A stretch of 64,000 bases of DNA, taken from a bacterium (lineage in GTDB: Bacteria > B130-G9). A program made the position numbers and the translations under genes. This document shows, piece by piece, positions 7,906 to 63,957 of the stretch. Positions within the stretch are counted from its first letter, which is position 1; each line of letters starts with the position of its first letter. The notes under the pieces were generated by a model. That model saw only the letters and a list, made by a program, of their open reading frames with translations, was not told the origin of the DNA and searched no databases. The stretch is from the NCBI GenBank assembly GCA_035527515.1, contig DATLAJ010000146.1, positions 1 through 64,000 on the forward strand, given 5' to 3'.

Positions 7906-10900
7906 GCACCCTCATCTACCTCGCCTGCACACTCTGCCTCGCTATCGCATCTCGCCTGTGGTTGACGGGCTATTGGCTCGCGCTGGACATCCCGAGGACG
8001 GAGATAGTGTCCGAATACACGCCGATCGTGCTCGTTCAAGCCGTGGTACTGCTGCTTTTACTGCCAAAGCTCGGCGTTCGCAAGAGAGTTAACTCGGCCG
8101 CAAAGCTCGTCTGCGCGTTCGGGGCTGTTGCCTTTCTCATCTTCGCATCACCGCTTGTAACGGCCGAATCGCGATATTTCGAGGCGATCGAAGGGACCGT
8201 TCTTCTTGGGCTGATAATCGCGGTCTCGGTGACGCTGCTAGTAACGCTCTTCCGCAACGTAGAAGAGCTGTCCAAGCGCAGGCTCGTCATAGCCCTGGTG
8301 GTTGTGTCTGCATCGTGCTACTTCTGGTTCGGGCTTTGGACCTACGATCAGCACCCGCCGGACGGTGACGAACCATATTACCTTCTGACAGCGCACAGCC
8401 TCGCATACGATCTTGACTTCGACCGCACCAACAACTTCAAGAACAAGGAGTACCTTGCTTACTATCCATACACGCTTCAGCCGCAGTTCCGCAGCATCAA
8501 GATCAAGGGTAAGGAGTATGAAGTCCAGAACTACAATGTCGGCTTTCCGCTCCTGATAGCGCTTCCCTATCGCCTGTTCGGGTTCCGAGGCGCGGTGGCC
8601 CTCATCAATCTTCTCGCCGCCTTGTTAATCGCAAACGTCTTTTTGCTTTCGCAGGAGCTCGGCGCAGGCAGAAGACATGCCCTGCTCGGTGCGCTCATCT
8701 TCGGCTTCTCGGTGCCCATGCTCAATTATGCGAACCAGGTATTCCCCGCCACCGCCAGTGCTCTGGTGGCCATCTATGCCTTCAGACGGCTTTCCCGGAT
8801 CGGCCCGGGCAAGCGGCGTGAGATGCTCATCCTGCTTGCGCTCTGTGTGGCTCTGTTCATGCTCAAGTTAAGGCTGTCGCTTCTCATCGCTCCCATTCTT
8901 CTGGTAGCGATGTGGAGAATGACGAGGAGAAAGGCGACTTGGCTCTATGCTTCGGGAGGGCTCGCAGTGCTCATCGCGTTGGGCTACATGCTGCGCGACC
9001 GAATCGTTACGCTACGCCTTCTCACATCGCGCCTTGACGAGTTTCTGCGGATGGGTGTTGGGGACCTTGCGCCAGCAAGCGGGCTTTTGGGCCAGATGCT
9101 GGACCAGCAGTTCGGACTGCTCGTGCTCGCACCTCTCTATGTTCTGTCGATTGCGGGTGCGGTCTCGCTGAACAGGAATAACCGAGGCATGTTGGCGAGA
9201 ATGCTCTTGGTCATCGGGCCGTACTATCTGGTCGTTGGTTCGATGCCCTGGTGGAACGCGTCATGGTGCCCGCCTTGTCGTTTCCTGATAGTGGTCTTGC
9301 CGTTTTTTGGCGCACTGCTTGGCTTGGGGCTTGCTCGTATTGCGACGTTCAGGCAGGCGGCGGCCCTCAGCTTCGCGGGAACGGTCTCGGCCATGGTTGC
9401 ATTCTGGCACCTTCTCTCCCCCGTGTTCCGATACGATCAGGCCAACGGAGCAAACCGAGCCTTCTGTCTTTTGCACATGAACACCTACATCGATCTGTCG
9501 CGGTTTCTGCCGTCATTCTTCCGAAGCGACATCATGACGCCAGTCAAGGTGCTGTTTGAGATGCTCGCATTTGCACTTCTGCTTGTGGCAATTGCGAGGG
9601 TCGGCAAGCGCGGGTCGAAGGGCGAGGGCATCTTCAAGACCGGCAGATACCTTCACGCTGGCGCAGTGGGAATAGCGGCCGTTGCGTTCGTGCTCGTGGC
9701 TGGGACGCTCTGTGATATTAGCATCCCCAAATGTACGTATGAGATGGAGGACGAGCCGCTTTCGATCTATGACCCACCTTCGAGAGCGTTCATTAAGGGC
9801 GGCCGGCGAATGACGCCCGGCTATCCGCTCGAGCGCGACGTGCAGCTTGCGCCCGGCGAGAAGCTTATTATTGTTGAGGCGATGATGCGCAACCCTATCT
9901 GGACGACAGTGCCACACCTTTGGCTTCAACTTGAGGGCGATTCTGAGACGGTCCGTGTCATCGATGAGCCTGTCGATGTTGAGCTGATGCAGAAGTACTA
10001 CAACCGAATCAGCGTCGCCGGCGGGCACTATCGGATGCGGCTTGGGATAACGATACCCGGCGTGGATATGAAGAAGATCAACCCTGACAAGGTGGCCGAC
10101 ATCTACGTTGACCGCGTGCAGATATTCGATGCGGATGGGCTCGAGGCCGTTCTCTACGCCAACTTCGGGCGGCTGTATGGCCTGTTTTCGCTGCAAGAAG
10201 GAGTTGATTTCATGGGGCAGGCATACTTCATCCAGCCGCGCTACAAGAGCTTGGGCGAGACAGTTTTTCGCTCGTTTATGAAGGCGAAGAGTTGGCCGGA
10301 GGCGGCGGACTTCTATTCTTTTCGGGCAGATTCAGACCCATTCGATCTTGGAGCATACCCTCCGGAAGCGCTGCTGATGCTTGCTGAGGCGGAGTTGGAC
10401 AGGCGGAAGTATCGTCATGCGCTTCAGATTCTCAGGCCAGTTTTAGGAGAGTCAGCGGTCTCGCCCAGGGCAGAGCTCGTCGCCGCCAAGGCACACATAG
10501 GCCTCAATCAGATTAAGGACGCGCTGTCTATTCTACCGAACGACGCGGCCGACCCTGCGGTCTTGAGCGAGGCGGACTACCTGCGCGCCGTGTGCCTGAT
10601 GCGGGAGGGCGGAACTCGCGAGGCGTTCAATCTCCTCGTCAAAGTTGCAGAGCAGTCGTTCGAGCAGCGATTCGATGCGCTGTGTCAGCTCCTTTCGTTG
10701 GCCAGAGGTCTCCACGACGATGTCCAGGCAAACCGTGCCACACGGCTGATGCAGGCGACCAGAACAACGGAGCTTGCGCCAGACGAGATGGCCAAGTCCG
10801 GCGGCAGGCAGGCCGACGGCGGCTGGTTGCTCGAGCGTAACGGCTTCTTTGAGGCGCCGGTCCAGGTTCTCTCCGACACGCTGGCGATCAAGATGAGCGT

Positions 10901-50707: not shown

Positions 50708-51940
50708 CTATTCGCAGCGCGATGAGATGCCCCCATTCATCAGCTCGCGCTGCCCAGGCTCTTTCGCGCTGCCCAGACTCTCTCTCGCTGCCAACGTCGC
50801 AGCATCATAGACTTCCTTCAGGCTCACGTGCGCTCGAAGGGCGGCATCTCGACACGACTTATAGTCCGGAGCCACATTCATAATCTCGTCTGAAGTCCTG
50901 CCGATCTTAACTGTTACCTGCCCATATTCGGTGTCAACGAGAGTGCTTTCTCTGAAAAGCTTCCTACGATTCACCTCGCCAACTCGCACTCCGAGCGTGC
51001 TCGTGTGCACAAAGACCGCCCTGAGGCAATCATCCAGCTTCTCGTGCGACGTGAGAACGCTGAGTATGAACCCCGCCCGGCCCTTCTTCATCACAGTCGG
51101 CGTTACGAACACATCGAGGGCACCCTCACCAAAGAGCGCCTCGCAGGCGGCGCTCAGCAGCTCCGCGCTCATGTCATCGATGTTGGTCTCTAGAAGGACG
51201 ACCTGATCGTGATCGTACTCACCGCTGTCCGTATCGCCGATCACGACCCTCAACATATTCGGTATCTCAAGGTCCCTCGTGCCAAGCCCATAACCAATGG
51301 CATTCACCTTCATCGGCGGCATGGCCCCGAAAGCGACGCAGAGATTCCGCAGAAGCGCTGCCCCGGTCGGGGTAACAAGCTCCGCCTCGATCCCACGCGA
51401 ATAGACTGGCAGCCCCTTGAGCAGCGCAAGGGTCGCCGGCGCCGGGACAGGAATCTCGCCATGCTGGCACTTCACGAAACCAGTTCCGACGTGAACTCTG
51501 GAGCAATATGCCCTCTCGATGCCCAATAGCTCGAGCGCAGCAATGGAGCCAATGATGTCAACTATGGAATCAAGGGCTCCTACCTCGTGAAAATGAATCG
51601 TTTCAGCATCTTTTTGATGAATGCCGCCCTCGACCTTCGCGACCTGCTCGAAGACCGCCTTGCTCTTGGCCTTAACAGCGTCGCTCAGCTCGCTCTGGTC
51701 GATAATCTTGAGTATGTCACCCAGGTGTCGATGCACGTGCTCCTCCCCGGCATCAACCCGGAACTTCGTGCCCGACAACGCCCCCTTCATGCCCTTCACT
51801 GCGCTCAGCTCAACCCCGGAGACCTTGAGCTTGCGCAGCTCCTGCTCGAGCCGATCAAGTGATAGGCCAGCATCCAGCAAAGAGCCGATAAACATGTCCC
51901 CGCTGGCCCCGGAGAAACAATCGAAGTATGCGATTCTCAC
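50708..51940 (-). CDS. larC: nickel-pincer cofactor biosynthesis protein LarC
   Basis: Inserts nickel into the pyridinium bis-thiocarboxylate mononucleotide to complete the pincer cofactor first found in lactate racemase. MRIAYFDCFSGASGDMF start, histidine-rich EEHVHRHLGDI and TIHFHEVGALDSIVDIIGS (nickel-handling), and VTPTGAALL are family signatures. 410 residues, full length in one frame, so no programmed frameshift is needed. It is one base downstream of larB. Confidence 0.95.
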   Translation of the reverse strand: MRIAYFDCFSGASGDMFIGSLLDAGLSLDRLEQELRKLKVSGVELSAVKGMKGALSGTKFRVDAGEEHVHRHLGDILKIIDQSELSDAVKAKSKAVFEQVAKVEGGIHQKDAETIHFHEVGALDSIVDIIGSIAALELLGIERAYCSRVHVGTGFVKCQHGEIPVPAPATLALLKGLPVYSRGIEAELVTPTGAALLRNLCVAFGAMPPMKVNAIGYGLGTRDLEIPNMLRVVIGDTDSGEYDHDQVVLLETNIDDMSAELLSAACEALFGEGALDVFVTPTVMKKGRAGFILSVLTSHEKLDDCLRAVFVHTSTLGVRVGEVNRRKLFRESTLVDTEYGQVTVKIGRTSDEIMNVAPDYKSCRDAALRAHVSLKEVYDAATLAARESLGSAKEPGQRELMNGGISSRCE

Positions 51941-51941
51941 G

Positions 51942-52694
51942 TTATTCTCCCATCCGGTTTATCACGCTGGCCGCATATCCAGCTCCAAAACCGTTGTCAA
52001 TGTTCACCACCAAGACGCCCGGCACGCACGAGTTCAGCATCCCCAGCAAAGCCGAGAGACCTCCGAAACTTGCGCCGTATCCCACGCTAGTCGGCACCGC
52101 GATGACCGGCCTATCCACAACCCCGCCAACGATGCTTGGCAGGGCGCCCTCCATGCCGGCCACGACGACGATAACGTTTGCAGACGTCAACTTCTCCCTG
52201 CTCCCAAGAAGCCGATGAAGGCCCGCAACACCAACGTCGTACAGCCGGTCCACCCGGTTGCCCATTGCCTCAGCGGTTACGGCCGCCTCCTCTGCTATCG
52301 GTAGGTCCGACGTGCCCGCGCTCACGATCAAGATCAGATTATCATTCACCGGACTGCGCCGCTCACCGACCAGCACCACCCTCGCCGTCTCGAAATAGAC
52401 TGCACTGCTTTCGACATTCCGGATCGCATCAAACACCGAGTCGCTGGCTTTTGTCGCCAGGATGGGCGCCCCATAAGAGGAAAGAGTCTGCACAATCTTG
52501 GCGATCTGCTCGTTCGTCTTGCCCGTGCAGAGCACCACCTCGGCAAATCCCTTGCGCAGAGCTCTATGAGTATCGACTTTGGCCCAGCCCAGGTCCTCGT
52601 AAGGAAGAGACTTCAGCCGTTCAAACGCCTCGCCGGGCGTGGTCTTGTGCGCCGAAACGTCCGAAAGAAGCTCCCTAATACTCTCTCTGTCCAC
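51942..52694 (-). CDS. larB: pyridinium-3,5-biscarboxylic acid mononucleotide synthase LarB
   Basis: Carboxylates and hydrolyses nicotinic acid adenine dinucleotide in the first step of pincer cofactor synthesis. The C-terminal part is AIR-carboxylase-like: SAGTSDLPIAEEAAVTAE, YDVGVAGLHRLL, VVAGMEGALPSIVGG, VPTSVGYGASFGG. 250 residues, normal length. It overlaps larE by 20 bases. Confidence 0.95.
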   Translation of the reverse strand: MDRESIRELLSDVSAHKTTPGEAFERLKSLPYEDLGWAKVDTHRALRKGFAEVVLCTGKTNEQIAKIVQTLSSYGAPILATKASDSVFDAIRNVESSAVYFETARVVLVGERRSPVNDNLILIVSAGTSDLPIAEEAAVTAEAMGNRVDRLYDVGVAGLHRLLGSREKLTSANVIVVVAGMEGALPSIVGGVVDRPVIAVPTSVGYGASFGGLSALLGMLNSCVPGVLVVNIDNGFGAGYAASVINRMGE

Positions 52695-53550
52695 GGCTAA
52701 CCCCTTCTTTGAGCACCTCGTTCATGCTGCCTGTTCTGTATCCCTCAACGTCCAAGCTTACGAACGTGTAGCCAAGCGCTTTGAAACTCTCAACTATCAC
52801 CGCCGCAATCTCTTTCTCAACTACCCGCGGGAGGTCCGCACTGGGAACCTCGATTCTCGCTGTGTCCGCGTGGTCCCGCACCCTGACTTGGCTAAAACCC
52901 AACTCCCTCATGAACTCCTCGCACGCCTCTATCCTGGAAAGTCGCTCCACCGTTAGCTTCTCCCCAAACGGAACACGCGTCGCCAGACACGAATTCGACG
53001 GCTTGTCCCAAGTCGGAAGGCCGAATCCCTTGGACAGGGCGACGATCTCACGCTTCCCAAGCCTCGCCTCCCTGAGCGGGCTTCGGATGCCAAGCTCCCT
53101 GGCCGCCCTCATCCCCGGACGGTAATCGCTCTCGTCGTCTTGGTTCACACCGTTCACTACGACAGCTGCCCCCACCTTTGCCGCCTCCCGGAGCAGCAGG
53201 TCACCGACGAGCGTCCCACAGCGATAGCACCGGTCCTTCCCGTTTGCCACGAATTCTGCGTCCGTCATCTGATCCGCCGGGAAAACAACGTGCCTGACGC
53301 CGAGCTCCTGGGCCAGCAACTTCGCCTGCTCAAGCTCGTGCCGCGGATATATCTTGCCCGTCGCCGTCTCCGCAGTTACCGCGCTGCCCAGAACGTCAGA
53401 GGCCACCTTCAGCAGAAAGGCGCTGTCCGCTCCCCCAGAATAGGCAACGAGAACGCTCTGCATTCCGGCAAGCAGGCTCCTCAGTTGCTGGAGCTTCTCG
53501 GAAGTTGCTACATATTCAGACTTGGTGCCGCGGATTGGGGCCTCCTCCAC
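52675..53550 (-). CDS. larE: ATP-dependent sacrificial sulfur transferase LarE
   Basis: Converts the two carboxylates of the LarB product to thiocarboxylates. PP-loop VAYSGGADSAFLLKVA, CYRCGTLVGDLLL, and DKPSNSCLATRVPFG, whose cysteine is the likely sacrificial or cluster-binding one. 291 residues. First gene of the larE-larB-larC set. No lactate racemase (larA) gene is present in the window, so the client enzyme lies elsewhere. Confidence 0.95.
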   Translation of the reverse strand: MEEAPIRGTKSEYVATSEKLQQLRSLLAGMQSVLVAYSGGADSAFLLKVASDVLGSAVTAETATGKIYPRHELEQAKLLAQELGVRHVVFPADQMTDAEFVANGKDRCYRCGTLVGDLLLREAAKVGAAVVVNGVNQDDESDYRPGMRAARELGIRSPLREARLGKREIVALSKGFGLPTWDKPSNSCLATRVPFGEKLTVERLSRIEACEEFMRELGFSQVRVRDHADTARIEVPSADLPRVVEKEIAAVIVESFKALGYTFVSLDVEGYRTGSMNEVLKEGVSRGQREY

Positions 53551-53637: not shown

Positions 53638-54948
53638 TCAGTGATCGCAGATATTCTCCCCGGACGTCAGCACGCCCGCAGCATAGGCCTCGATCAGCGC
53701 CTTTGGCTCATCGCTCGAGACGCCCACAATCACATCTATGTTCTGCTCGTCAAAGAGCCTCTTGGCCCGCGAACCCATCCCACCAGAGATGATGACGTTG
53801 ACCTCGTGCTCGCTCAGCCACTTGGGCAGAAGACCCGGCTCGTGAGCCGGCGAGCTGATCGTTTCGGGGCCGGTTATTTGCTTATTTGCTGCGTCAACAC
53901 CGAAAATTGCGAACTGCTCGCAGTGTCCAAAATGCGGTGACAGCTTGCCACCGACAATGGGAATCGCTACTCGCATCTGGTCCTCCTTGTGATCTGTCGC
54001 TGAGATCGAGTCAGGCGTTTTGGCCGTGAGCTCCGCACCACCGCCGGCCCACCCTGGCAGGCCCGCGGTCTTCTCCCGTCTGTAATCAAGAACTCCCCTG
54101 GCAATCTGGGCGAACGCCGCCGCCGCGCCCGGGCCCTCGCCCTCGCCTGCCAACGGCCTGCCAGCGTCCGACGCGACAACGATCGCCGGATCGATGGGTA
54201 TGCTCCCCAGGTATGGGACACGCAGTTCACGGGCCATCTTTGCCCCACCGCCGGCCTTGAAAATGTCCACCCTCTCGCCACAATTGGGACACACGAAACC
54301 GCTCATGTTCTCAATCACACCAATTACAGGTACACGAAGCTTCTCGCAAAAATTGATGCACTTCCGCACATCGATCAGCGATAACTCCTGAGGCGTAGTT
54401 ACGATGATTGCTCCGTCAACGTCCTGAATCAGCTGGGCAACTGAGAGCGGCTCATCGCCCGTGCCAGGCGGCGAATCCACGATCAAATAGTCCAGATCGC
54501 CCCACCGAACGTCCTTCAAAAACTGCTTTATCACGCCGTATTTCATCGGCCCCCGCCAGATGACAGCCGTATCGCTCCTGTCGAGCAAGAAACCGATGGA
54601 CATGACCTTCAGATGCTCGCCGACTGAGACGGGGAGAATCTTATGTTCCAGGCCCTCGGCCCTCGCGTTCTCAAGGCCGAGCAGCTTCGGGATACTTGGC
54701 CCGTGAATGTCTATATCCAGAAGGCCCACTTTATTGCCTTGCTCCCCCAGAAAAAGCGCGAGGTTCGCAGCAACCGTGCTCTTCCCCACACCGCCCTTGC
54801 CAGACAGAACAAGTATCTTATGCCCGATATGCGAGAGTTGGCCAGCAATCTCCTGACGGTCGTCGAGGTCGCTTTTCATCTTGCCATCTGTTCCCTGGCG
54901 TGCGAAACCGCCCTGCCCCGAACGTCCACATCCTTCGCCGCTTTTCAT
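53638..54948 (-). CDS. mrp: Mrp/NBP35 P-loop ATPase fused to a C-terminal ORP (NifX-like) domain
   Basis: 436 residues. Residues about 40-290 are a Mrp/ApbC iron-sulfur carrier ATPase: deviant Walker A SGKGGVGKST (49-58), IVDSPPGTGDEP, and CPNCG, whose cysteines bridge an iron-sulfur cluster in Mrp dimers. Residues 325-436 are a dinitrogenase cofactor/orange-protein domain (MRVAIPIVGGKLSPHFGHCE). This is the architecture known as MrpORP in Desulfovibrio. An internal ATG at 53976 begins exactly at the ORP domain and has AAGGAGG five bases upstream (53982-53988), so a separate ORP chain may also be made. It overlaps the methyltransferase gene by four bases. Confidence 0.93.
   Translation of the reverse strand: MKSGEGCGRSGQGGFARQGTDGKMKSDLDDRQEIAGQLSHIGHKILVLSGKGGVGKSTVAANLALFLGEQGNKVGLLDIDIHGPSIPKLLGLENARAEGLEHKILPVSVGEHLKVMSIGFLLDRSDTAVIWRGPMKYGVIKQFLKDVRWGDLDYLIVDSPPGTGDEPLSVAQLIQDVDGAIIVTTPQELSLIDVRKCINFCEKLRVPVIGVIENMSGFVCPNCGERVDIFKAGGGAKMARELRVPYLGSIPIDPAIVVASDAGRPLAGEGEGPGAAAAFAQIARGVLDYRREKTAGLPGWAGGGAELTAKTPDSISATDHKEDQMRVAIPIVGGKLSPHFGHCEQFAIFGVDAANKQITGPETISSPAHEPGLLPKWLSEHEVNVIISGGMGSRAKRLFDEQNIDVIVGVSSDEPKALIEAYAAGVLTSGENICDH
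53982..53988 (-). promoter_or_regulatory. internal Shine-Dalgarno site for the ORP domain
   Basis: On the minus strand AAGGAGG is followed by five bases and an in-frame ATG (53976) at the first residue of the ORP domain. The site is as strong as any gene start in the region. Confidence 0.6.
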
Positions 54949-55640
54949 TCTTTCACCTCTCTAGACCGCTCTACCTTAACAGTTCCAACCAGAAAATCCC
55001 CAAACGGCAGCCGCAGAATACGACCCACCGCATCTAGAACCCTCGACAGCCAAAGAAGGCCTCGCCACGGCAGCACAAACGCAGTCGAGAGCACAGATGC
55101 ATCCCCGAGGCCAGCGAGGAGCCGCAGCAGCTCGCCGGCGGTCATCAAACGCGACTCACGAACGACCGGCGAGCCGCGACGACGCCTGAGCCAGGCGAGC
55201 AAGGAGACCCGATTGAGCACGCCGACGACTATTCTTCCGCCGGGCCTTACGCATCGGGTAAGCTCCTCGAGCACCACACTGGCATCGGACACAAACTCAA
55301 GCGTCGTGATGGCGCACCCGACGTCAAAACTGCTGCTTGGAAAAGGCAGACTCGAGGCGTCCGCCAGGGCGAACCTAGCGCGCACAATCCCCTTTGATTG
55401 CGCCACACGCATCATCCCTAGAGACAGATCAACACCAAAAACCTCCAAGCCAAGCTCGGAGAAAAACTCAGCCCAGTGCCCGGTGCCGCAGCCAATCTCA
55501 AGCATCCGCCGGCCCTTTGGACTCGACCCAAGCGCCTCGGCAACGGCCCTCTTCTCGATACGGTCATACACTCGCCCAACCGGACCGCCATACCAATCAT
55601 CGTATCGACCCGCAACATTATCAAAATCGAATGGCGTCAT
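54945..55640 (-). CDS. class I SAM-dependent methyltransferase
   Basis: About 231 residues with MLEIGCGTGHWAEFFSELGL (SAM site), VDLSLGMMRVAQ and DVGCAITTLEFVSDA, the pattern of the Methyltransf_11 group. Substrate unknown. It shares four bases with the MrpORP fusion, so the two are co-translated. Methyltransferases of this kind sit beside Mrp-type genes in other anaerobes, by my recollection. Confidence 0.85.
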   Translation of the reverse strand: MTPFDFDNVAGRYDDWYGGPVGRVYDRIEKRAVAEALGSSPKGRRMLEIGCGTGHWAEFFSELGLEVFGVDLSLGMMRVAQSKGIVRARFALADASSLPFPSSSFDVGCAITTLEFVSDASVVLEELTRCVRPGGRIVVGVLNRVSLLAWLRRRRGSPVVRESRLMTAGELLRLLAGLGDASVLSTAFVLPWRGLLWLSRVLDAVGRILRLPFGDFLVGTVKVERSREVKE

Positions 55641-55798: not shown

Positions 55799-56692
55799 TC
55801 ACCCCATAGCCAACGTAACTCGCCCCCAGAGCGTCCTGATCTCCTGTGCGACAGCCCCGCCAGTGTACTCCACGACCGTGGCGCCCATAACTTGTGCCTT
55901 TGTAACCGCGGCATCGTATCTGACCCTCGGAAGGACCTCCACGCCGTTTGCCCTCGCAAACGCCTCGATCTCCTCCGTCATCTCGGGGTTGAGGTCGAAC
56001 TTGTTGACGCAGACGCCGGACTTGGTCCCGAAATGTTTGGTCAGGCCCAAAACACGCTCAAAATCATGCTTGCCCGAGAGGGTCGGCTCAGTAACGATCA
56101 GCACGAAATCAGCCCCCGTAACCGAGGCGATGACCGGGCAGCCAATGCCGGGCGAGCCATCGACCAGAAGCAAGTCCAAACCCCTCTTTTTTGCCAGCTC
56201 CTTCGCCTCCTTGCGAACCAGTGAGACGAGCTTACCGCTGTTCTCCTGAGCCGCAAAGAGCTTAGCGTGCACCATTGGCCCATGCCTCGTCTCGGAGATG
56301 TACCATTCGCCGCTCTGTGCGTCCTTCGATTCGATGGCGTCTTCAGCACAGAAGTATGCACATACGCCGCAGCCCTCACACGCCAACGGGTCGATCCTGA
56401 ACGTCTTTGGGACAATACCGTTACCAGGCCCATCGAAGTATATCGCATCAAACCTACATATCTCCTCGCACTTCCCGCAAGCCGTGCAGTGGCCCGGCAG
56501 TATCCGAACCTCACGCGCACCGACAAACTTGTGGCGAGATATTACACGAGGCGTAAGGACGAGATGTAGGTCGGCGGCGTCAACATCGCAGTCAGCGGCC
56601 ACAGCCCTGTTTTTGGCCAGTGCTGCGAACGAGGCCAAGATGCTGGTCTTGCCAGTTCCCCCCTTGCCCGAGACCACGACAAGCTCCTTCAT
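55799..56692 (-). CDS. MinD-superfamily ATPase with inserted ferredoxin domain (ORP-associated)
   Basis: About 297 residues. Deviant Walker A SGKGGTGKTS at 8-17. A 2x[4Fe-4S] ferredoxin insertion at about 65-110 has two clusters of cysteines (HCTACGKCEEICRF and CEGCGVCAYFC). Then LLLVDGSPGIGCPV gives Walker B. Paired MinD/ferredoxin ATPases flank the orange-protein gene in Desulfovibrio and are thought to act in assembling the ORP metal cluster. It overlaps its paralogue by four bases. Confidence 0.92.
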   Translation of the reverse strand: MKELVVVSGKGGTGKTSILASFAALAKNRAVAADCDVDAADLHLVLTPRVISRHKFVGAREVRILPGHCTACGKCEEICRFDAIYFDGPGNGIVPKTFRIDPLACEGCGVCAYFCAEDAIESKDAQSGEWYISETRHGPMVHAKLFAAQENSGKLVSLVRKEAKELAKKRGLDLLLVDGSPGIGCPVIASVTGADFVLIVTEPTLSGKHDFERVLGLTKHFGTKSGVCVNKFDLNPEMTEEIEAFARANGVEVLPRVRYDAAVTKAQVMGATVVEYTGGAVAQEIRTLWGRVTLAMG

Positions 56693-57534
56693 CGTTCACC
56701 TCCCAATACCTTCTCAACGAGGGGGCGCAGGTAATCCGAATAGCCACTAACGGCATCAATGGGCAGCTCGCCGTGCGAATAGGCTACCGCAACGTCTCTG
56801 TCGTCCGGTATCTCGCCCAACAGCTCTATTCTATGCTGCTGGCAGAACTTTTTTGTCTTGTCGTCCCCAATGTCGCTGCGATTGATGATGACCCCGAACT
56901 CGGCACCAACCTGCCGTGTCATATCGACCGCGAGCTTGAGGTCGTTGAGGCCGAAGGGCGTGGGCTCAGTCACTAGAACGACCAGGTCCGCGTGCATTAT
57001 CGTCTCGACAACTGGACAAGACGTGCCGGGCGGCGCGTCCAGCACCGTGATGCCATTGCTAAGAGCTCGCCGTTTGACACCCTTGACAAGGGGAGGGGAG
57101 AGCGCCTCGCCGATCTTGAGCTTCCCGTGGGCGAACCGAACTTCGCCCGCGAAGCCCTCCTCGACCACGCCAATCTCTCTGTCCACCTCGGTGATAGCGT
57201 TTGCTGGGCAGACAAGGTAACAGCCTCCGCACGCATGGCAGAGTTCCTGAAACACCAGCGTCTTATTACCAATGCATAAGATTGCGTTGTATTGACATAT
57301 CTTCTCGCACTTCCGACACAACGTGCACTTGTCCTGGTCCACCACTGGCACTGGCAAGTAGATCGTCTCACGGCTACGAATGGTGGGTTTAAGAAATATG
57401 TGTCCGTTGGGCTCCTCAACGTCGCAGTCCAGATACGCGACATCTTGGCCCGCGCGAGAGAGCAAAACAGAGAGGCAAGTGGCCACCGTTGTCTTCCCGG
57501 TGCCTCCCTTACCGCTCGCTATTGCTACTCGCAT
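56689..57534 (-). CDS. MinD-superfamily ATPase with inserted ferredoxin domain (paralogue)
   Basis: About 281 residues. Deviant Walker A SGKGGTGKTT at 7-16. The ferredoxin insertion has KCTLCRKCEKICQY and CHACGGCYLVCP. TVLDAPPGTSCPVVETI marks Walker B. With the overlapping paralogue it probably forms a heterodimeric ATPase. Sixteen bases separate it from the TauE-type gene. Confidence 0.92.
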   Translation of the reverse strand: MRVAIASGKGGTGKTTVATCLSVLLSRAGQDVAYLDCDVEEPNGHIFLKPTIRSRETIYLPVPVVDQDKCTLCRKCEKICQYNAILCIGNKTLVFQELCHACGGCYLVCPANAITEVDREIGVVEEGFAGEVRFAHGKLKIGEALSPPLVKGVKRRALSNGITVLDAPPGTSCPVVETIMHADLVVLVTEPTPFGLNDLKLAVDMTRQVGAEFGVIINRSDIGDDKTKKFCQQHRIELLGEIPDDRDVAVAYSHGELPIDAVSGYSDYLRPLVEKVLGGER

Positions 57535-57550
57535 ACTTTCACCACTCTCA

Positions 57551-58309
57551 TCAGTGCAATATCACATCTTTTATAGCCAGGGTAGCAGCAAATGCGAGCA
57601 GGACTATCCCAAACATCAACCTAATACCGCGGGATTTAAGTTTTGCAGCCATGAGCCTCGAACCACACTGACTGGCGATCAGCACCCCAACAATACAAGG
57701 CACCCATATTGCCCAATCGGGCGCTGCGGCCAGCGCAACGTGCGAAAAGAAGCTCGACCCCGCCGACCACGTGATAATGAATGCTGAGGTCGCAGCGGCC
57801 ATCTTGGGATCAAGCCCCGCAATGCACAGCATCGGCACGACGAAGGAGCCGCCACCGCGACCGAGCAGGCCCGCCAGAAAGCCCAGCGCTGCCCCGCCGC
57901 ATATCCCCAGGACCACACGACCACGCGCGGTCAATCCCCCTCGCTTCGGCCTCCAGCCGGAAAGCATTAGGATTGCTGCCGTCGCTGTGAACGCCGCAAA
58001 AATCCCGATCAACGGCCTAGTTGGGAGCTTCACGTTGAGCCAAGCACCGACCGGGGCAAGGCCCACTGAGGCAATCGCAAAGGGCACACCGGTCCGCCAG
58101 TCGATCATCTTCTTACGCCCATAAGTTATCGCGGCAGAAGAGCTGCTGACGACATTCAATAGTAGCGCCAATGGTATCGCCTCGGTCTTGAAATCCATTC
58201 CCATCCAGAACAACACAGGGATGTAGAGCTGCGACCCGCCCATCCCAAGCATCGAGAAAACGAACGCGATGCAGAAGATGACCAGCGGGGCGAGAACCGT
58301 CATTCCCAT
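57551..58309 (-). CDS. TauE/SafE-family membrane transporter
   Basis: About 252 residues with seven or eight hydrophobic segments. GMGGSQLYIPVLFWMGMDFK and LAGLLGRGGGSFVVPMLCI are the two internal repeats of the TauE/SafE (sulfite/organosulfonate exporter-like) family. In an ORP-type locus a sulfur or thiomolybdate-related anion is a reasonable guess for its cargo. It is four bases downstream of the TrmO gene. Confidence 0.9.
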   Translation of the reverse strand: MGMTVLAPLVIFCIAFVFSMLGMGGSQLYIPVLFWMGMDFKTEAIPLALLLNVVSSSSAAITYGRKKMIDWRTGVPFAIASVGLAPVGAWLNVKLPTRPLIGIFAAFTATAAILMLSGWRPKRGGLTARGRVVLGICGGAALGFLAGLLGRGGGSFVVPMLCIAGLDPKMAAATSAFIITWSAGSSFFSHVALAAAPDWAIWVPCIVGVLIASQCGSRLMAAKLKSRGIRLMFGIVLLAFAATLAIKDVILH

Positions 58310-58313
58310 TTAC

Positions 58314-58844
58314 CTACTCGCACGGCTCCTTGCTCCTTCGCGAACCAATCTCTTCTGCATCTATGTCCGAAATCTTCTCTTGCCATCCTGAGAGCGCGTC
58401 CGATCGGGTGTCAAATCGAGGAATAAACGGCTTAATGTCCACGACGGGACTCCCGTCGAGAATATCCACGTCCTCGACAAATAGCACATTTTTCTCGCGC
58501 TTGACCAGTCGAACCAGACTTAGGCCGATCAGGTTGGGCCTTCTAGGCGATCTTGCGGCAAATACGCCCCTTTTGACACTCTCAAGATAGGGCTTAACCT
58601 TCAGGGCCGCAGGTCCTGCTTTATGAAAGATGAATAGAATGAAGATATGCGAGAATCCGTCCAGGTCATCCAGCCCCTCCTCATATTCTGGCAGGATAAC
58701 CACTCTTGCCTGTGAGCCCTGGGCATATAGCGGCTGGATCGGCGTCTTGGCTGGATCGACATAGCTAGAATGGACGTAGCCAATCGGCCGGAACACGAAC
58801 TCTTCCTGTCCACCACTTGTGGCAGCATCCGTTCCGGACGTCAT
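58314..58844 (-). CDS. trmO: TrmO (YaeB/TsaA) family protein
   Basis: About 176 residues. FRPIGYVHSSYVDPAKTP, LDDLDGFSHIFILFIFHKA, RSPRRPNLIGLSLV and VDILDGSPVVDIKPFIPRFD are hallmarks of TrmO, the SAM-dependent N6-methylase of t6A37 in tRNA. Divergent members occur near metal and ORP-type genes in anaerobes and may have other substrates. The N-terminal 15 residues are low-complexity. Confidence 0.9.
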   Translation of the reverse strand: MTSGTDAATSGGQEEFVFRPIGYVHSSYVDPAKTPIQPLYAQGSQARVVILPEYEEGLDDLDGFSHIFILFIFHKAGPAALKVKPYLESVKRGVFAARSPRRPNLIGLSLVRLVKREKNVLFVEDVDILDGSPVVDIKPFIPRFDTRSDALSGWQEKISDIDAEEIGSRRSKEPCE

Positions 58845-58860: not shown

Positions 58861-59118
58861 TCACACTTGCCGCGTCATCATTGTCCCACATTTAGGGCAC
58901 TTCATCTGCGTACACGACATTCCTAACTGATGGGGCACGACCTCGCCGCAGCTGGGGCAGACACAGTTCCCGCCAGGGCCTGCCGCGAAACCGCCGCCAC
59001 CACCTCTGCCGCCGCCCCCACGTCCAGCGCCGCCGCCCGCGCCCATTCCACGACCGCCCATGCCGCGACCCGTTCCCGGGCCCTGTCCAGTTGGTCCCGT
59101 TCCGTCACCTCTTGGCAT
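58861..59118 (-). CDS. glycine-rich small protein with C-terminal zinc ribbon
   Basis: 85 residues. MPRGDGTGPTGQGPGTGRGM opens with the signature shared by the next two small proteins, followed by a long Gly/Arg stretch. The C-terminus has two CxxC knuckles (CPSCG and CPKCG) that should bind one zinc or iron. AAGGAG lies eight bases upstream of the ATG. Related DUF5320-type proteins accompany ORP/NifX genes in anaerobes. Function unknown. Confidence 0.82.
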   Translation of the reverse strand: MPRGDGTGPTGQGPGTGRGMGGRGMGAGGGAGRGGGGRGGGGGFAAGPGGNCVCPSCGEVVPHQLGMSCTQMKCPKCGTMMTRQV

Positions 59119-59278: not shown

Positions 59279-59656
59279 TTACTCGGCCTTGCTCTTCTGA
59301 AGCTCTTCCATGCGCTTTCGAATCTCGTTCAGGCTTTTCTCAAGGTATTCAGCCTGGGCCTTGAGCGCACCCGTCTCCTGCTCAGGGGTTGGTGCATAGC
59401 CCGGCGGTGGCGCATATCCGTAACCCGGCGCACCCCCCGCGGGCACGCCCGCTGCGGCGCGCTGCCAACCCGTCAAGCCGGTCGCGTAGAACTGGTTTCG
59501 CCAACCCCGACCTCTCCCGAAGCCGCCTCCAAAGCCCATGCCTCGTCCGCCAACGGGATTCATGTATCCCGGCGTGCCATAGCCAGCGCAGTAGCCGGCC
59601 GCTCTACCGGTCATTGGGCCCATACCCGCAGGGCCCGTTCCGTCTCCTCTAGGCAT
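59279..59656 (-). CDS. DUF5320-like glycine-rich protein with C-terminal coiled coil
   Basis: 125 residues. MPRGDGTGPAGMGPMTGRAA plus GYC is the N-terminal signature. The middle is Gly/Tyr/Pro-rich. The C-terminal 45 residues (QAEYLEKSLNEIRKRMEELQ) form a coiled coil, which suggests oligomerisation. AAAGGAG lies upstream. The conserved GYC cysteine could carry a metal or thiol. Confidence 0.85.
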   Translation of the reverse strand: MPRGDGTGPAGMGPMTGRAAGYCAGYGTPGYMNPVGGRGMGFGGGFGRGRGWRNQFYATGLTGWQRAAAGVPAGGAPGYGYAPPPGYAPTPEQETGALKAQAEYLEKSLNEIRKRMEELQKSKAE

Positions 59657-59717: not shown

Positions 59718-60002
59718 TTACCAAAATCGTCGGCCGCGCCCGCCTCCTCGGCCTCGCCCGCCAAAGCCTCTGAAAGCCCGCCGGCCGCGTCCAAGGAAAG
59801 CCCCTCGCCAAGCAGGATACAGGCCAGGGCGAAAGCCAAAGGCCGGCACCGGCGGCCGCACGACTACAGGATAGCCCCAGCCGGCCGTCCCAGTGGGGAA
59901 ACCCGCAGGCGCCTGACCAGACGGCACAGCGCAGTAGCCCATTCCGCGACCTGTCAAAGGCCCAAGCCCCATCGGGCCTGTTCCATCAAAACCAGGCATC
60001 AT
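59718..60002 (-). CDS. DUF5320-like glycine/arginine-rich small protein
   Basis: 94 residues. MMPGFDGTGPMGLGPLTGRG with GYC is the shared N-terminal signature. The C-terminus is an RG-rich tail (GGRGRGGGRGRRFW) without coiled coil or zinc ribbon. AAAGGAG precedes the ATGATG start. The RG tail could bind nucleic acid, but nothing else supports that. Confidence 0.8.
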   Translation of the reverse strand: MMPGFDGTGPMGLGPLTGRGMGYCAVPSGQAPAGFPTGTAGWGYPVVVRPPVPAFGFRPGLYPAWRGAFLGRGRRAFRGFGGRGRGGGRGRRFW

Positions 60003-60125: not shown

Positions 60126-60317
60126 TCATGTGAAAGCACCGGGCGCGCAGCTGGCGCCCGATGAGCTGCTCACGTTCGAGCCAAACATCGACATCAGCCG
60201 TTTAGGTCCCTTGGCGCCGCATTCAGGGCAGGAGACCTGATCGCCACTCTCATTGATGCCCTGAAGAAACTCAAAACGCGTCTTGCACTCTTGACACTCG
60301 TATTCGTAAATCGGCAC
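60126..60317 (-). CDS. FmdB-family zinc ribbon protein
   Basis: 63 residues. MPIYEYECQECKTRFEFLQ and SCPECGAKGPKRLMS are the two CxxC knuckles of the FmdB (putative regulatory) family. Ser-rich tail. The start is GTG with AGGAGG ten bases upstream. Role unknown; it is often found with C1 or metal genes. Confidence 0.9.
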   Translation of the reverse strand: MPIYEYECQECKTRFEFLQGINESGDQVSCPECGAKGPKRLMSMFGSNVSSSSGASCAPGAFT

Positions 60318-60408: not shown

Positions 60409-60768
60409 CTACCAATGCCCACCCACGTCCGACCTCGCAGCTGGCGTGAGCTCCCCGCTCTTGAACTTCTCGAGCGCCTCCGCCACGGTCCCGCTCGCAC
60501 CGGTTACAACCTTGATCCCAGCCGCACTCAACGCCCTGAACGCGTTCGGACCGCAGTGCCCGGTGATTAGCACCTCAACTCCTTTGTCCGCCATCAGACT
60601 GGCCGCCTGCGGACCCGCGCCGTGCGCAGCGCTCATCGGCCCGCTGTTATCATGCGCCTCAAACTCGCCGGACTCAGTGTCCGCAAATAGAAAGAACGAG
60701 GCGCGGGCGAACCGCTCGTCAACATCGCTCTCGAGTGTCTTGCCCAGTGAACTGACCGCAACCTTCAT
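60409..60768 (-). CDS. NifX/NafY-type dinitrogenase cofactor-like (orange-protein fold) protein
   Basis: 119 residues. MKVAVSSLGKTLESDVDERF is the start of the family, with ASFFLFADTES and GVEVLITGHCGPNAFRALSA following. The orange protein of Desulfovibrio, which carries a Mo-Cu-S cluster, has this fold. The conserved cysteine lies in GHCG. It overlaps the second NifX-like gene by four bases. Confidence 0.9.
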   Translation of the reverse strand: MKVAVSSLGKTLESDVDERFARASFFLFADTESGEFEAHDNSGPMSAAHGAGPQAASLMADKGVEVLITGHCGPNAFRALSAAGIKVVTGASGTVAEALEKFKSGELTPAARSDVGGHW

Positions 60769-61175
60769 CTCATCTTTCCTCCGTTATTGAAGAACCTCCC
60801 ACGACGCCCATGACGAAAACGCCGGCAGCCCTGGCGTGCGCCAACTCCTACAAGCGTTCCAAAATCTGTCACGTTAAGCTCCTTGTTAAGAAAAGCCCTC
60901 AGAACGTCATCAACTCGTCCGTTGGCCCATCCGACCAGGGAAATCCCTGAGTTCGACAGCATCGCCGCAAGCGGCCTTGAGACCGCTCCGCAGATCAAAA
61001 CGTCAATTCCAAGGTCTAAAATCGCTCTAGCCCGAAAGGGCAGATATGTCTCCGCGATCTCAACCTCTTCTCGCCCGATCTCCTTCCCGTCCTCAACATC
61101 AAGGACCAAAAATCGCTTGCACCCATCGAGCACGGGCGAGATTCTGTCCTCCCAAACTGAAATACCAACTTTCAT
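60765..61175 (-). CDS. NifX-type (orange-protein fold) protein with basic C-terminal tail
   Basis: About 136 residues. MMKVGISVWEDRISPVLDGC begins the fold. DVLICGAVSRPLAAMLS holds the usual C-G position. The last 30 residues are arginine-rich (GCRRFRHGRRGRFFNNGG). Start at ATG 61175, with GGAGG five bases upstream. This is the first gene after the sigma-54 promoter. Confidence 0.88.
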   Translation of the reverse strand: MKVGISVWEDRISPVLDGCKRFLVLDVEDGKEIGREEVEIAETYLPFRARAILDLGIDVLICGAVSRPLAAMLSNSGISLVGWANGRVDDVLRAFLNKELNVTDFGTLVGVGARQGCRRFRHGRRGRFFNNGGKMR

Positions 61176-61195
61176 CATCGCCTCCATCGGTAGTT

Positions 61196-61213
61196 AAGCA
61201 TATCTCGTGCCAA
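61196..61213 (-). promoter_or_regulatory. sigma-54 promoter (-24/-12)
   Basis: The minus strand reads TTGGCACGAGATATGCTT. The invariant GG and GC are exactly ten bases apart, and the -24 box TTGGCACG matches the consensus completely; the -12 box ATGCT deviates by one base from TTGCW. It lies 21 bases upstream of the NifX-like gene and transcribes into the ORP-type locus. A sigma-54 activator is encoded 1.4 kb away. Confidence 0.8.
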
Positions 61214-61672
61214 AGTCTGTCCACAGAGCGGGTAATGGGCCTAAATATCCTTTGGATGGGAGATAACATGATGAGCGTGGTCTTTGATCGCCCATCGGAT
61301 GTCAGGTAATCAGGTTGCAGAATTGAAACGCTGGCGGGCCCAGTAGTTGCAGACGGCAACCATTCAAAACGGATGCCAATCTCCGGAGAGCATGCCATCG
61401 GTAGCCGTGTGCGAAGCACAACGGGCAATAGACACAGGCCGGCCCAGCACCAAATTTCAATCCGTCAGGCTGACGCCTGCGGCTACCCATGGTCTTCTCT
61501 GACGGGAAATAGGGGCAATCCAGTGGCAAACTGACTCTGACCGATATACACGCGCCGGAATGCATTCGGACAATTGTCCATCCCCGCTAGCGGATACCGT
61601 GGGTAGCCGTGTGTGAAGCACAACGGGGATCGAAGCCTTCACAAATTTCTTCGTGTAAGCTATCCTACATCT
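61214..61672. other. intergenic region between the sigma-54 promoter and the transposase
   Basis: No gene seen. 61214-61390 should contain activator binding sites for the sigma-54 promoter, but I could not identify a clear inverted repeat. 61391-61508 is a degenerate copy of the family-1 element, and 61582-61628 is the left end of the transposase element. Confidence 0.5.
61391..61508 (+). repeat. family-1 inverted-repeat element without transposase (degenerate copy)
   Basis: The left arm CGGTAGCCGTGTGCGAAGCA lacks the outer CCCCGCTAGGGGATACC part; the right arm CGTCAGGC..CTGCGGCTACCC with the outer CTGACGGG is present. The interior (AATAGACACAGGCCGGCCCA) is nearly the same as in the copy at 62225. 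Confidence 0.75.
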
Positions 61673-62156
61673 ATGCCGACGTTTTATCAGATCTATTATC
61701 ATGTTATCTTCACAACAAGCAGAAGGTGTCCTGTTCTTCTTTCCGCAGGTCGTGAACGGCTCTTTAAATTCATCTGGGGGATTATCAAAAACAGGGATTG
61801 TCATTTGTACCGGATCAACGGCATGGAAGATCACATTCATATATTCACCGCTCTTCATCCAAAAATCTGCCTCGCGAATCTGATGAGGGACATCAAGGCC
61901 GGGTCATCCAAATGGATAAGGGAGGAGAATCTATTCCCGGATTTCGAGGCATGGCAGGATGGTTATGGCGCGTTCACGCATTCTCAGGCGGATAAGGACC
62001 GCCTGATCGAATATGTGAAAAACCAGCAGGAGCATCATGCGAGGCTCTCGTTTGAGGAGGAATGGCGCGGGTTATTGGCTGAGGCGGGTATAGAGATCAA
62101 CGACAGGATCCCGTCAGGCTGACGCCTGCGGCTACCCATGGTCTTCCCTAGCGGGA
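61582..62156 (+). mobile_element. IS200/REP-type transposon with inverted-repeat ends
   Basis: Left end at 61582-61628 (CCCCGCTAGCGGATACCG and GTGGGTAGCCG); right end at 62111-62156 (CTGCGGCTACCCATGG and CCCTAGCGGGAA). The ends are inverted relative to each other and enclose one Y1 transposase gene. The same ends without the gene occur at 21-130, 61391-61508, 62225-62352 and 62426-62547. This is therefore the autonomous member of the family. Confidence 0.8.
61673..62122 (+). CDS. IS200-like Y1 (REP-associated, RAYT) transposase
   Basis: 149 residues. MPTFYQIYYHVIFTTSRR begins the TnpA-like fold. DHIHIF is the HUH (HxH) motif, and the tyrosine in DGYGAFTHS is the likely nucleophile. RHS-type contacts and the ALHPKICLANLMRDIKAGSS region fit REP-associated tyrosine transposases. 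It lacks a TnpB partner. ATG 61673 is the start; an upstream start at 61613 would overlap the left end. The TGA stop lies inside the right-end repeat (CAGGCTGACG), so element end and gene end are fused. Confidence 0.92.
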   Translation: MPTFYQIYYHVIFTTSRRCPVLLSAGRERLFKFIWGIIKNRDCHLYRINGMEDHIHIFTALHPKICLANLMRDIKAGSSKWIREENLFPDFEAWQDGYGAFTHSQADKDRLIEYVKNQQEHHARLSFEEEWRGLLAEAGIEINDRIPSG

Positions 62157-62224
62157 AATCAGAGCATTCCAGCAACATAAGGATCAATGTGCTCGCGCCG
62201 TATGTATCCCAGAGAATTGTCAAT

Positions 62225-62634
62225 CCCCGCTAGGGGATACCGTGGGTAGCCGTGTGCGAAGCACAACGGGCAATAGATACAGGCCGGCCCAGCACCAAAT
62301 TTCAATCCGTCAGGCTGACGCCTGCGGCTACCCATGGTTTTCCCTGACGGGAAATAGGGGCAATCCAGCAACATAACGAATGATCAATGTGCTCGCGCCG
62401 TATGTATCCCAGACAATTACCTTCTCCCCGCTAGGGGATACCGTGGGTAGCCGTGTGTGAAACACAACGGGCAAGGAGAGCGCGCTTCCAAATAATCTCC
62501 CCGTCAGGCTGACGCCTGCGGCTACCCATGGTCTTCCCTAGCGAGAAATTAGGGTATTCCAGCAACATAACGAATGATCAATGTGCTCGCGCCGTATGTA
62601 TCCCAGAGAATTGTCTTGTCCCCGCTAGGGGCTA
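62225..62634 (+). repeat. tandem array of transposase-less family-1 elements
   Basis: Two full copies (62225-62352 and 62426-62547) and the beginning of a third (62620-62634) repeat with a period of about 200 bases. The copies are separated by a conserved spacer containing AGCAACATAACGAATGATCA and TGCTCGCGCCGTATGTATCC, which also follows the transposon at 62157-62224. The last unit ends at the stop codon of the sigma-54 activator gene. Confidence 0.8.
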
Positions 62635-63957
62635 CACCAACAATCCCAGGCGACGCATCTTCCGCCAAAGCGTCGTCTTGTGAATCCCGAGCTCCCGCGA
62701 CGTCGCAACGCGGTTGCCGCCGTTGCGGTCAAGCGCCTCAACTATCAGCCTCGCCTCGACATCGCGCAGCGAGCCGGAATAGGAAGGTGGCCCGGCGACA
62801 GCTTTGGGTTGGAGATAGATTGGCAAGTGCTGCGGCTCAATGATTCTGCCCCTGCACAGGACGAACGCGTGCTCGATAATGTTCTCCAGCTCGCGGATGT
62901 TGCCAGGGAAGTCGAACTTCATGAGGACAGACATGGCGTCCGGCGAGATGCCCGCTATGCTCTTGCCCTTCAGCCGGTTGAAACGCGTAATGAAGCGGTC
63001 GATGAGAAGCGGGATGTCCTTGCGCCGCTCCCGAAGTGGAGGCAGGCGCAGGTTCACGACGTTTACTCGGTAGTAGAGGTCCTGCCTGAACTCACCTCTT
63101 TCGACAAGTTGCCTCAGATCACTATTGGTGGCCGCGATTATTCGGACGTCTGCCTGAACGGTTTGTGACGAGCCAAGCGGCTCGTAGGTTCTCTCCTGCA
63201 CAACACGCAGCAGCCGGACTTGCATGGAGGGAGAGACTTCGCCGATCTCGTCGAGGAATAGAGTGCCGCCCTCGGCCATGTCAAACCTCCCTTTCCGGTC
63301 TGAGGTGGCATCCGTGAACGCTCCTCTCTTGTGGCCGAAAAGCTCCGATTCTAAAAGCGTGTCCGGCAGCGCGCCGCTATTGACGATCACCAGCGGCTTG
63401 TTCCGGCGCGGGCTGAGGCCATGAATCGCCCTACACAGAAGCTCCTTACCGGTGCCGCTCTCGCCCTCTATGAGAACGGTGCTCTCGCTCTCAGCTACGG
63501 CCGGCAAGATGTTGAAAAGCTCCAACATCTCCTTGTTCTGGCTTATCATATCGGAGAAACTGTAGCGCTGCTCGACCTTTTTTTTCAGCTCCTCGACGAG
63601 GCTGAGGTCGCGGAACGTCTCAACGCCGCCGATTACATTGCCCTCGTCGTCCCTCAGAACAGCCGTCGAGGCGCTTAGGGGAACGTTCTCGCCGCTTTCG
63701 TTGATCATGAACAACGCCTTGCAGAGAACCGGCTCACCCGTCTTCATGGTCTGCCGAAGCGCGCAGTCCGACTCGCAAACCGTGGCCCGCAGAACCTCCC
63801 AGCACGGCCTTCCAACCGCATCCTCGCGCAAGACGCCTGTTATTCGCTCCGCTGCGTGGTTGAACAACGTGATGCGGAACTCAAGATCGACTGTGAACAC
63901 CCTGTCGGTGATCGAGTCGAGGATAACTTCAATGTGTCTCTGATGTTCTTGCCTCAT
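62632..63957 (-). CDS. orpR: PAS-domain sigma-54-dependent activator (OrpR-like)
   Basis: 441 residues. Residues about 8-120 are a PAS domain with three cysteines, C52, C61 and C65 (PCWEVLRATVCESDCAL). Residues about 140-370 are an AAA+ central domain: Walker A GESGTGKE, the sigma-54-contacting GAFTDA (212-217), and GTLFLDEIGE. The C-terminal Fis-type helix-turn-helix has NRVATSRELGIHKTTLWRKM. In Desulfovibrio vulgaris the orp activator OrpR uses a PAS iron-sulfur cluster as redox sensor, and the cysteine pattern fits that role. It should act on the promoter at 61196. Its stop codon overlaps the end of the repeat array. Confidence 0.9.
   Translation of the reverse strand: MRQEHQRHIEVILDSITDRVFTVDLEFRITLFNHAAERITGVLREDAVGRPCWEVLRATVCESDCALRQTMKTGEPVLCKALFMINESGENVPLSASTAVLRDDEGNVIGGVETFRDLSLVEELKKKVEQRYSFSDMISQNKEMLELFNILPAVAESESTVLIEGESGTGKELLCRAIHGLSPRRNKPLVIVNSGALPDTLLESELFGHKRGAFTDATSDRKGRFDMAEGGTLFLDEIGEVSPSMQVRLLRVVQERTYEPLGSSQTVQADVRIIAATNSDLRQLVERGEFRQDLYYRVNVVNLRLPPLRERRKDIPLLIDRFITRFNRLKGKSIAGISPDAMSVLMKFDFPGNIRELENIIEHAFVLCRGRIIEPQHLPIYLQPKAVAGPPSYSGSLRDVEARLIVEALDRNGGNRVATSRELGIHKTTLWRKMRRLGLLV

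Follow-up and report, generated by a model that had tools for sequence, protein, structure and literature searches.

What switches on the ORP-type gene set in this 64,000-nucleotide stretch of DNA (hereafter, the window), and does a single promoter read all of it? The initial annotation had placed a near-consensus sigma-54 site ahead of the first NifX-like gene and let it drive the locus. Read from 61213 to 61196, TTGGCACGAGATATGCTT indeed contains the GG-N10-GC pair and shows a single mismatch (A for T) to the sigma-54 consensus TTGGCACG-N4-TTGCW; the consensus described for Desulfovibrio vulgaris is tGGcacg/tTGCt (PMC4641369). If GG and GC are held constant, no other site on either strand of the window comes within one mismatch of the consensus, and a shuffled window is expected to contain 0.125 such sites. 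Exact matches to TTGGCACG-N5-TGCT (TTGGCACGN5TGCT) number six in the 3.47 Mb genome, this site among them, against a chance expectation of ~0.4 (simple arithmetic on 12 specified bases). All six are outside large open reading frames, and a flgB-like gene follows one of them. Sites with one mismatch in the same genome precede flagellin-like and gvpA-like genes, these names being read from the translations (near-perfect sites on L014, L031 and L037, before flgB-like, gvpA-like and flagellin-like genes). Only near-perfect matches carry meaning, because sites with up to two mismatches are no more frequent than in the reversed-pattern control (321 vs 359).

The -12 GC occupies 61199-61198, so transcription is predicted to start near 61186. 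We chose ATG 61175 as the start of NifX1 from the Shine-Dalgarno and promoter geometry: GGAGG lies ahead of it at 61181-61185, and the promoter site is 21 bases away, the spacing originally reported. The start given in the list of open reading frames, ATG 61187, is unlikely, since the predicted +1 lands on it. The predicted leader is merely ~11 nt long, which we count against the promoter reading.

Table 1. Predicted features of the locus, in window coordinates.
Feature	Position	Strand	Remarks
Sigma-54 activator	62632..63957	minus	PAS (C52/C61/C65), AAA+ with GAFTDA loop, Fis-type HTH
RAYT transposase with REP-like repeats	61387..62635		transposase ~61673-62122, plus
Distal putative enhancer dyad	61347..61359	minus	TTGC-N5-GCAA; centre -142 from -24 G
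Proximal putative enhancer dyad	61315..61328	minus	TTTC-N6-GCAA; centre -110.5 from -24 G
Sigma-54 -24/-12 promoter (predicted)	61196..61213	minus	reads TTGGCACGAGATATGCTT
NifX1	60765..61175	minus	first gene, PF02579-like; start ATG 61175
NifX2	60409..60768	minus	PF02579
Zinc-ribbon protein	60126..60317	minus	PF09723
DUF5320 protein	59718..60002	minus	
DUF5320 protein	59279..59656	minus	
Small Gly-rich protein with Cys pairs	58861..59118	minus	no family
TrmO-like protein	58314..58844	minus	PF01980
TauE/SafE permease	57551..58309	minus	PF01925
MinD-type ATPase with 4Fe-4S insert	56689..57534	minus	Orp3/Orp4-like
MinD-type ATPase with 4Fe-4S insert	55799..56692	minus	Orp3/Orp4-like
SAM methyltransferase	54945..55640	minus	
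MrpORP	53638..54948	minus	NF041136 518 bits, cut-off 450
LarE	52675..53550	minus	possibly read through from operon
LarB	51942..52694	minus	possibly read through from operon
LarC	50708..51940	minus	possibly read through from operon

The genes behind the site are those of an ORP locus. Its MrpORP combines a P-loop NTPase with a C-terminal Di-Nase domain and scores above the NCBIfam cut-off. Directly behind it on the same strand follow larE, larB and larC, the nickel-pincer cofactor genes (50708-53550). From co-orientation and small gaps, we infer that the whole set would form one transcript. Alternatively, the promoter might serve only NifX1-NifX2 and perhaps a few more genes, with the MinD, MrpORP and lar genes having promoters of their own. 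In favour of this, several genes of the operon are separated by gaps of ~60-160 bp, and some relatives without NifX1 still keep MinD-MrpORP blocks. In L126, where NifX1 was not detected, a sigma-54-like TTGGCCCGCAGTTTGCA at position 9017 stands 36 bases ahead of the MinD-ferredoxin gene MinDFe1, with TTGC dyads upstream. Against separate promoters, all genes are co-oriented, and relatives carrying the site also have co-oriented genes behind it. Moreover, sigma-70-like matches (6 vs 4.3) and terminator-like matches (14 vs 11.4) are near the expectation from shuffles. We hold this division of the locus to be unlikely, though it is the most probable of the alternatives considered.

Upstream of the promoter lies an activator gene with the same orientation, the end of its reading frame 1,419 bp from the site. 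The contig has no other PF00158 match, in agreement with the earlier description of a sole activator in the window, 1.4 kb upstream. Its orthologues adjoin NifX1, and the gene is the likely partner of the promoter. The protein scores high against NifA/PrdR-type NCBIfam models, yet falls below every listed EBP cut-off. It is 88% identical to the activator of a relative (G001), with its motifs retained. The locus has what a sigma-54 promoter calls for: an EBP with a GAFTGA-type loop (here GAFTDA) and an upstream enhancer. The sigma factor itself is encoded in the same genome by an rpoN of which only N-terminal parts are seen in the assembly. The domain that reads the -24 element is unseen because the contig end cuts the gene; this break explains why a search for the DNA-binding domain came back empty, and we reject absence of sigma-54 from the genome. 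G001, G002 and G003 belong to the same genus or family, and their full-length frames contain that domain.

The putative enhancer consists of twin dyads, TTGC-N5/6-GCAA, spaced by ~32 bp at about -140 and -108 from the -24 G. Exact six-base palindrome searches did not pick it up: the dyads surfaced from the comparison of relatives. When the upstream regions of this genome, G001 and G002 are aligned, the conserved blocks are the dyads and the promoter. Dyads with similar position and spacing occur in at least ten loci, distant relatives included (among them this one, G001, G002, G027, G037, G081, L140, L154, L169 and L179), the TTGC motif having first been derived from the same loci in which it was later counted. 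Two dyads occupy nearly the same place, with nearly the same spacing, in G009, and two lie at -117/-84, with 33 bp between them, in a second G037 locus; each of these two loci has a dyad sequence of its own. Across the whole genome of the window, the pair of TTGC dyads was encountered a single time, against 0 for the reversed-pattern control. A dyad test free of the motif gave 1/60 shuffles for the window and was not significant in several relatives. Between enhancer and promoter, the best match in a search for IHF sites has 7/9 specified bases and is not distinguished from chance.

The space separating activator from enhancer is taken up by a RAYT/REP element, with the enhancer itself undisturbed. 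The REP-like repeat unit that we tested has four copies, all within the element, and none elsewhere in the assembly. In most relatives and loci where both genes are present, the activator is ~200-490 bp from NifX1: a mobile element has parted it from its target in this genome, which we count against the explanation that follows. Both the enhancer and the mobile element between activator and promoter had been overlooked in the initial annotation.

Our best explanation, which we regard as very probable, is a sigma-54 promoter that is switched by the adjacent activator through the twin dyads and reads the ORP operon. As features of the sequence, the promoter, the enhancer, the operon order, the activator domains, their conservation and rpoN are established. 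The PAS-AAA+-Fis activator would most likely bind the two dyads, and looping of the DNA would let the bound activator meet RNA polymerase-sigma-54. Its AAA+ ATPase would then open the promoter for transcription from ~61186 into the NifX1-NifX2-...-MrpORP operon. It is improbable that the promoter is real but driven by another EBP, the adjacent activator having lost its job after the RAYT insertion. The genome does have nine further strong PF00158 (EBP) matches, and 1.4 kb now separate the activator from the promoter; however, the dyads are intact at the distance seen in relatives with a directly adjacent activator, their pair is unique in the genome, and the activator has kept its motifs and its close likeness to that of G001.

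Conservation among relatives also speaks for the promoter. The search for orthologues of the activator and NifX1 covered 98 genomes, as well as 80 named loci that the second MinD ATPase had retrieved; these 80 include no named orp locus of Desulfovibrio. A GG-N10-GC site (up to three mismatches) lies within 150 bp upstream of NifX1 in 21/29 cases, against 8/508 among the remaining genes of these loci (Fisher p ~6e-25, ignoring non-independence; such p-values are merely indicative, because the loci are not all independent). The initial annotation had proposed a scan of related genomes that could have refuted the promoter; its outcome instead supports a sigma-54 promoter driving the ORP-type locus. 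By their labels, the loci include Planctomycetota, Glassbacteria, Desulfobacterota-type groups, an Acidobacteria-type (Granulicella-labelled) MAG and Spirochaetes. NifX1 is found in 13/14 loci with the activator vs 5/41 without it. In L113 and L142 the layout is the same and GT replaces GC; a recognizable site is missing upstream of NifX1 in L117, L119, L150, L160 and L162. The activator is divergent from NifX1 in some relatives only (e.g. G027, L113, L134 and L191). That the site is a chance match, with an ordinary promoter reading the gene, is hardly credible: loose matches in the window (up to three mismatches, GG/GC free) are indeed at chance level (258 vs 270), and being uninformative they were left out of the evidence, but the site itself is near-perfect, enriched ahead of NifX1 across distant lineages and accompanied by a positioned enhancer, and its conservation already contradicts chance. 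Taken together, the sequence data strongly support a genuine, evolutionarily conserved sigma-54 promoter at this position.

Some relatives show local irregularities. In G037 (L098, 2699-3109), a NifX1 homologue has three in-frame stops, from a pseudogene, a frameshift or wrong frame edges. In G001, the gene after the activator is response-regulator-like (L094, 3' end), and a histidine-kinase-like frame lies ahead of the enhancer (L093, 5' end); these extra genes are perhaps one inserted module divided between two contigs. L093 opens with ~430 bases that look AT-rich and foreign, maybe a misassembly.

To which signal might the activator respond? Its PAS domain has three cysteines that all of 25 ORP-linked activators share without exception, as do four further relatives. 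Such a triad is in none of this genome's other EBPs that could be checked (L007 left out). AlphaFold predicts a confident PAS fold (pLDDT 91.8), and the model matches generic PAS/LOV structures, including the NifL PAS domain (2gj3); these matches point to no ligand. The initial annotation had predicted redox- or metal-dependent switching of the whole set. Sigma-54 control is strongly supported, while sensing of redox, metal or Fe-S state by the PAS domain goes as far as plausible, because the domain bears a conserved Cys triad. We propose tentatively, and with considerable doubt, that these activators are a widespread sensor family: their C-x8-C-x3-C PAS triad would hold a metal or an Fe-S cluster, or else serve as a thiol switch, and the activators would report the state served by the ORP/MrpORP proteins, NifX1, mostly adjoining, being a feedback partner.

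Most likely, then, promoter, activator and sites together switch on an iron-sulfur or metal-handling gene set. ORP has been studied in Desulfovibrio, and the activating signal is not established in the ORP literature considered; the activator's PAS domain is a candidate sensor of Fe-S or metal state in anaerobes. A promoter, an enhancer and a Cys-bearing sensor common to several phyla make up a well-defined regulatory module that is open to testing.

The closest known system is that of the D. vulgaris Hildenborough orp operons (DVU2103-2109), controlled by sigma-54, DVU2106 and IHF (PMC3897727, PMC4641369), and the locus is best called one of that kind. Both have MrpORP, two ferredoxin-MinD ATPases, a NifX-like protein and a sigma-54 promoter. 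The MrpORP of the window resembles by sequence the described Fe-S carrier (PMC6345978). Like our activator, DVU2106 is a one-component EBP with a GAFTDA loop, a likeness confined to the loop. The palindromic EBP sites of D. vulgaris, one at -131 from the start, compare with ~-134 and -166 here. In contrast to the two divergent operons of D. vulgaris, there is here a single co-directional operon. The activator is encoded upstream in the same direction; in D. vulgaris the EBP promoter is overlapped by the EBP's own site. Twin TTGC dyads, the additional TauE, TrmO, zinc-ribbon and lar genes, and the RAYT insertion also set this locus apart. With NifA/PrdR-type one-component EBPs, the activator shares a sensor domain, AAA+ and a Fis HTH; it differs from them in its own Cys triad and in scoring below the listed cut-offs. 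New here are the twin enhancer, the PAS Cys triad and the RAYT/REP element that spares the enhancer. The arrangement is known from Desulfovibrio; our comparison shows its recurrence in many unrelated, mostly uncultured bacteria.
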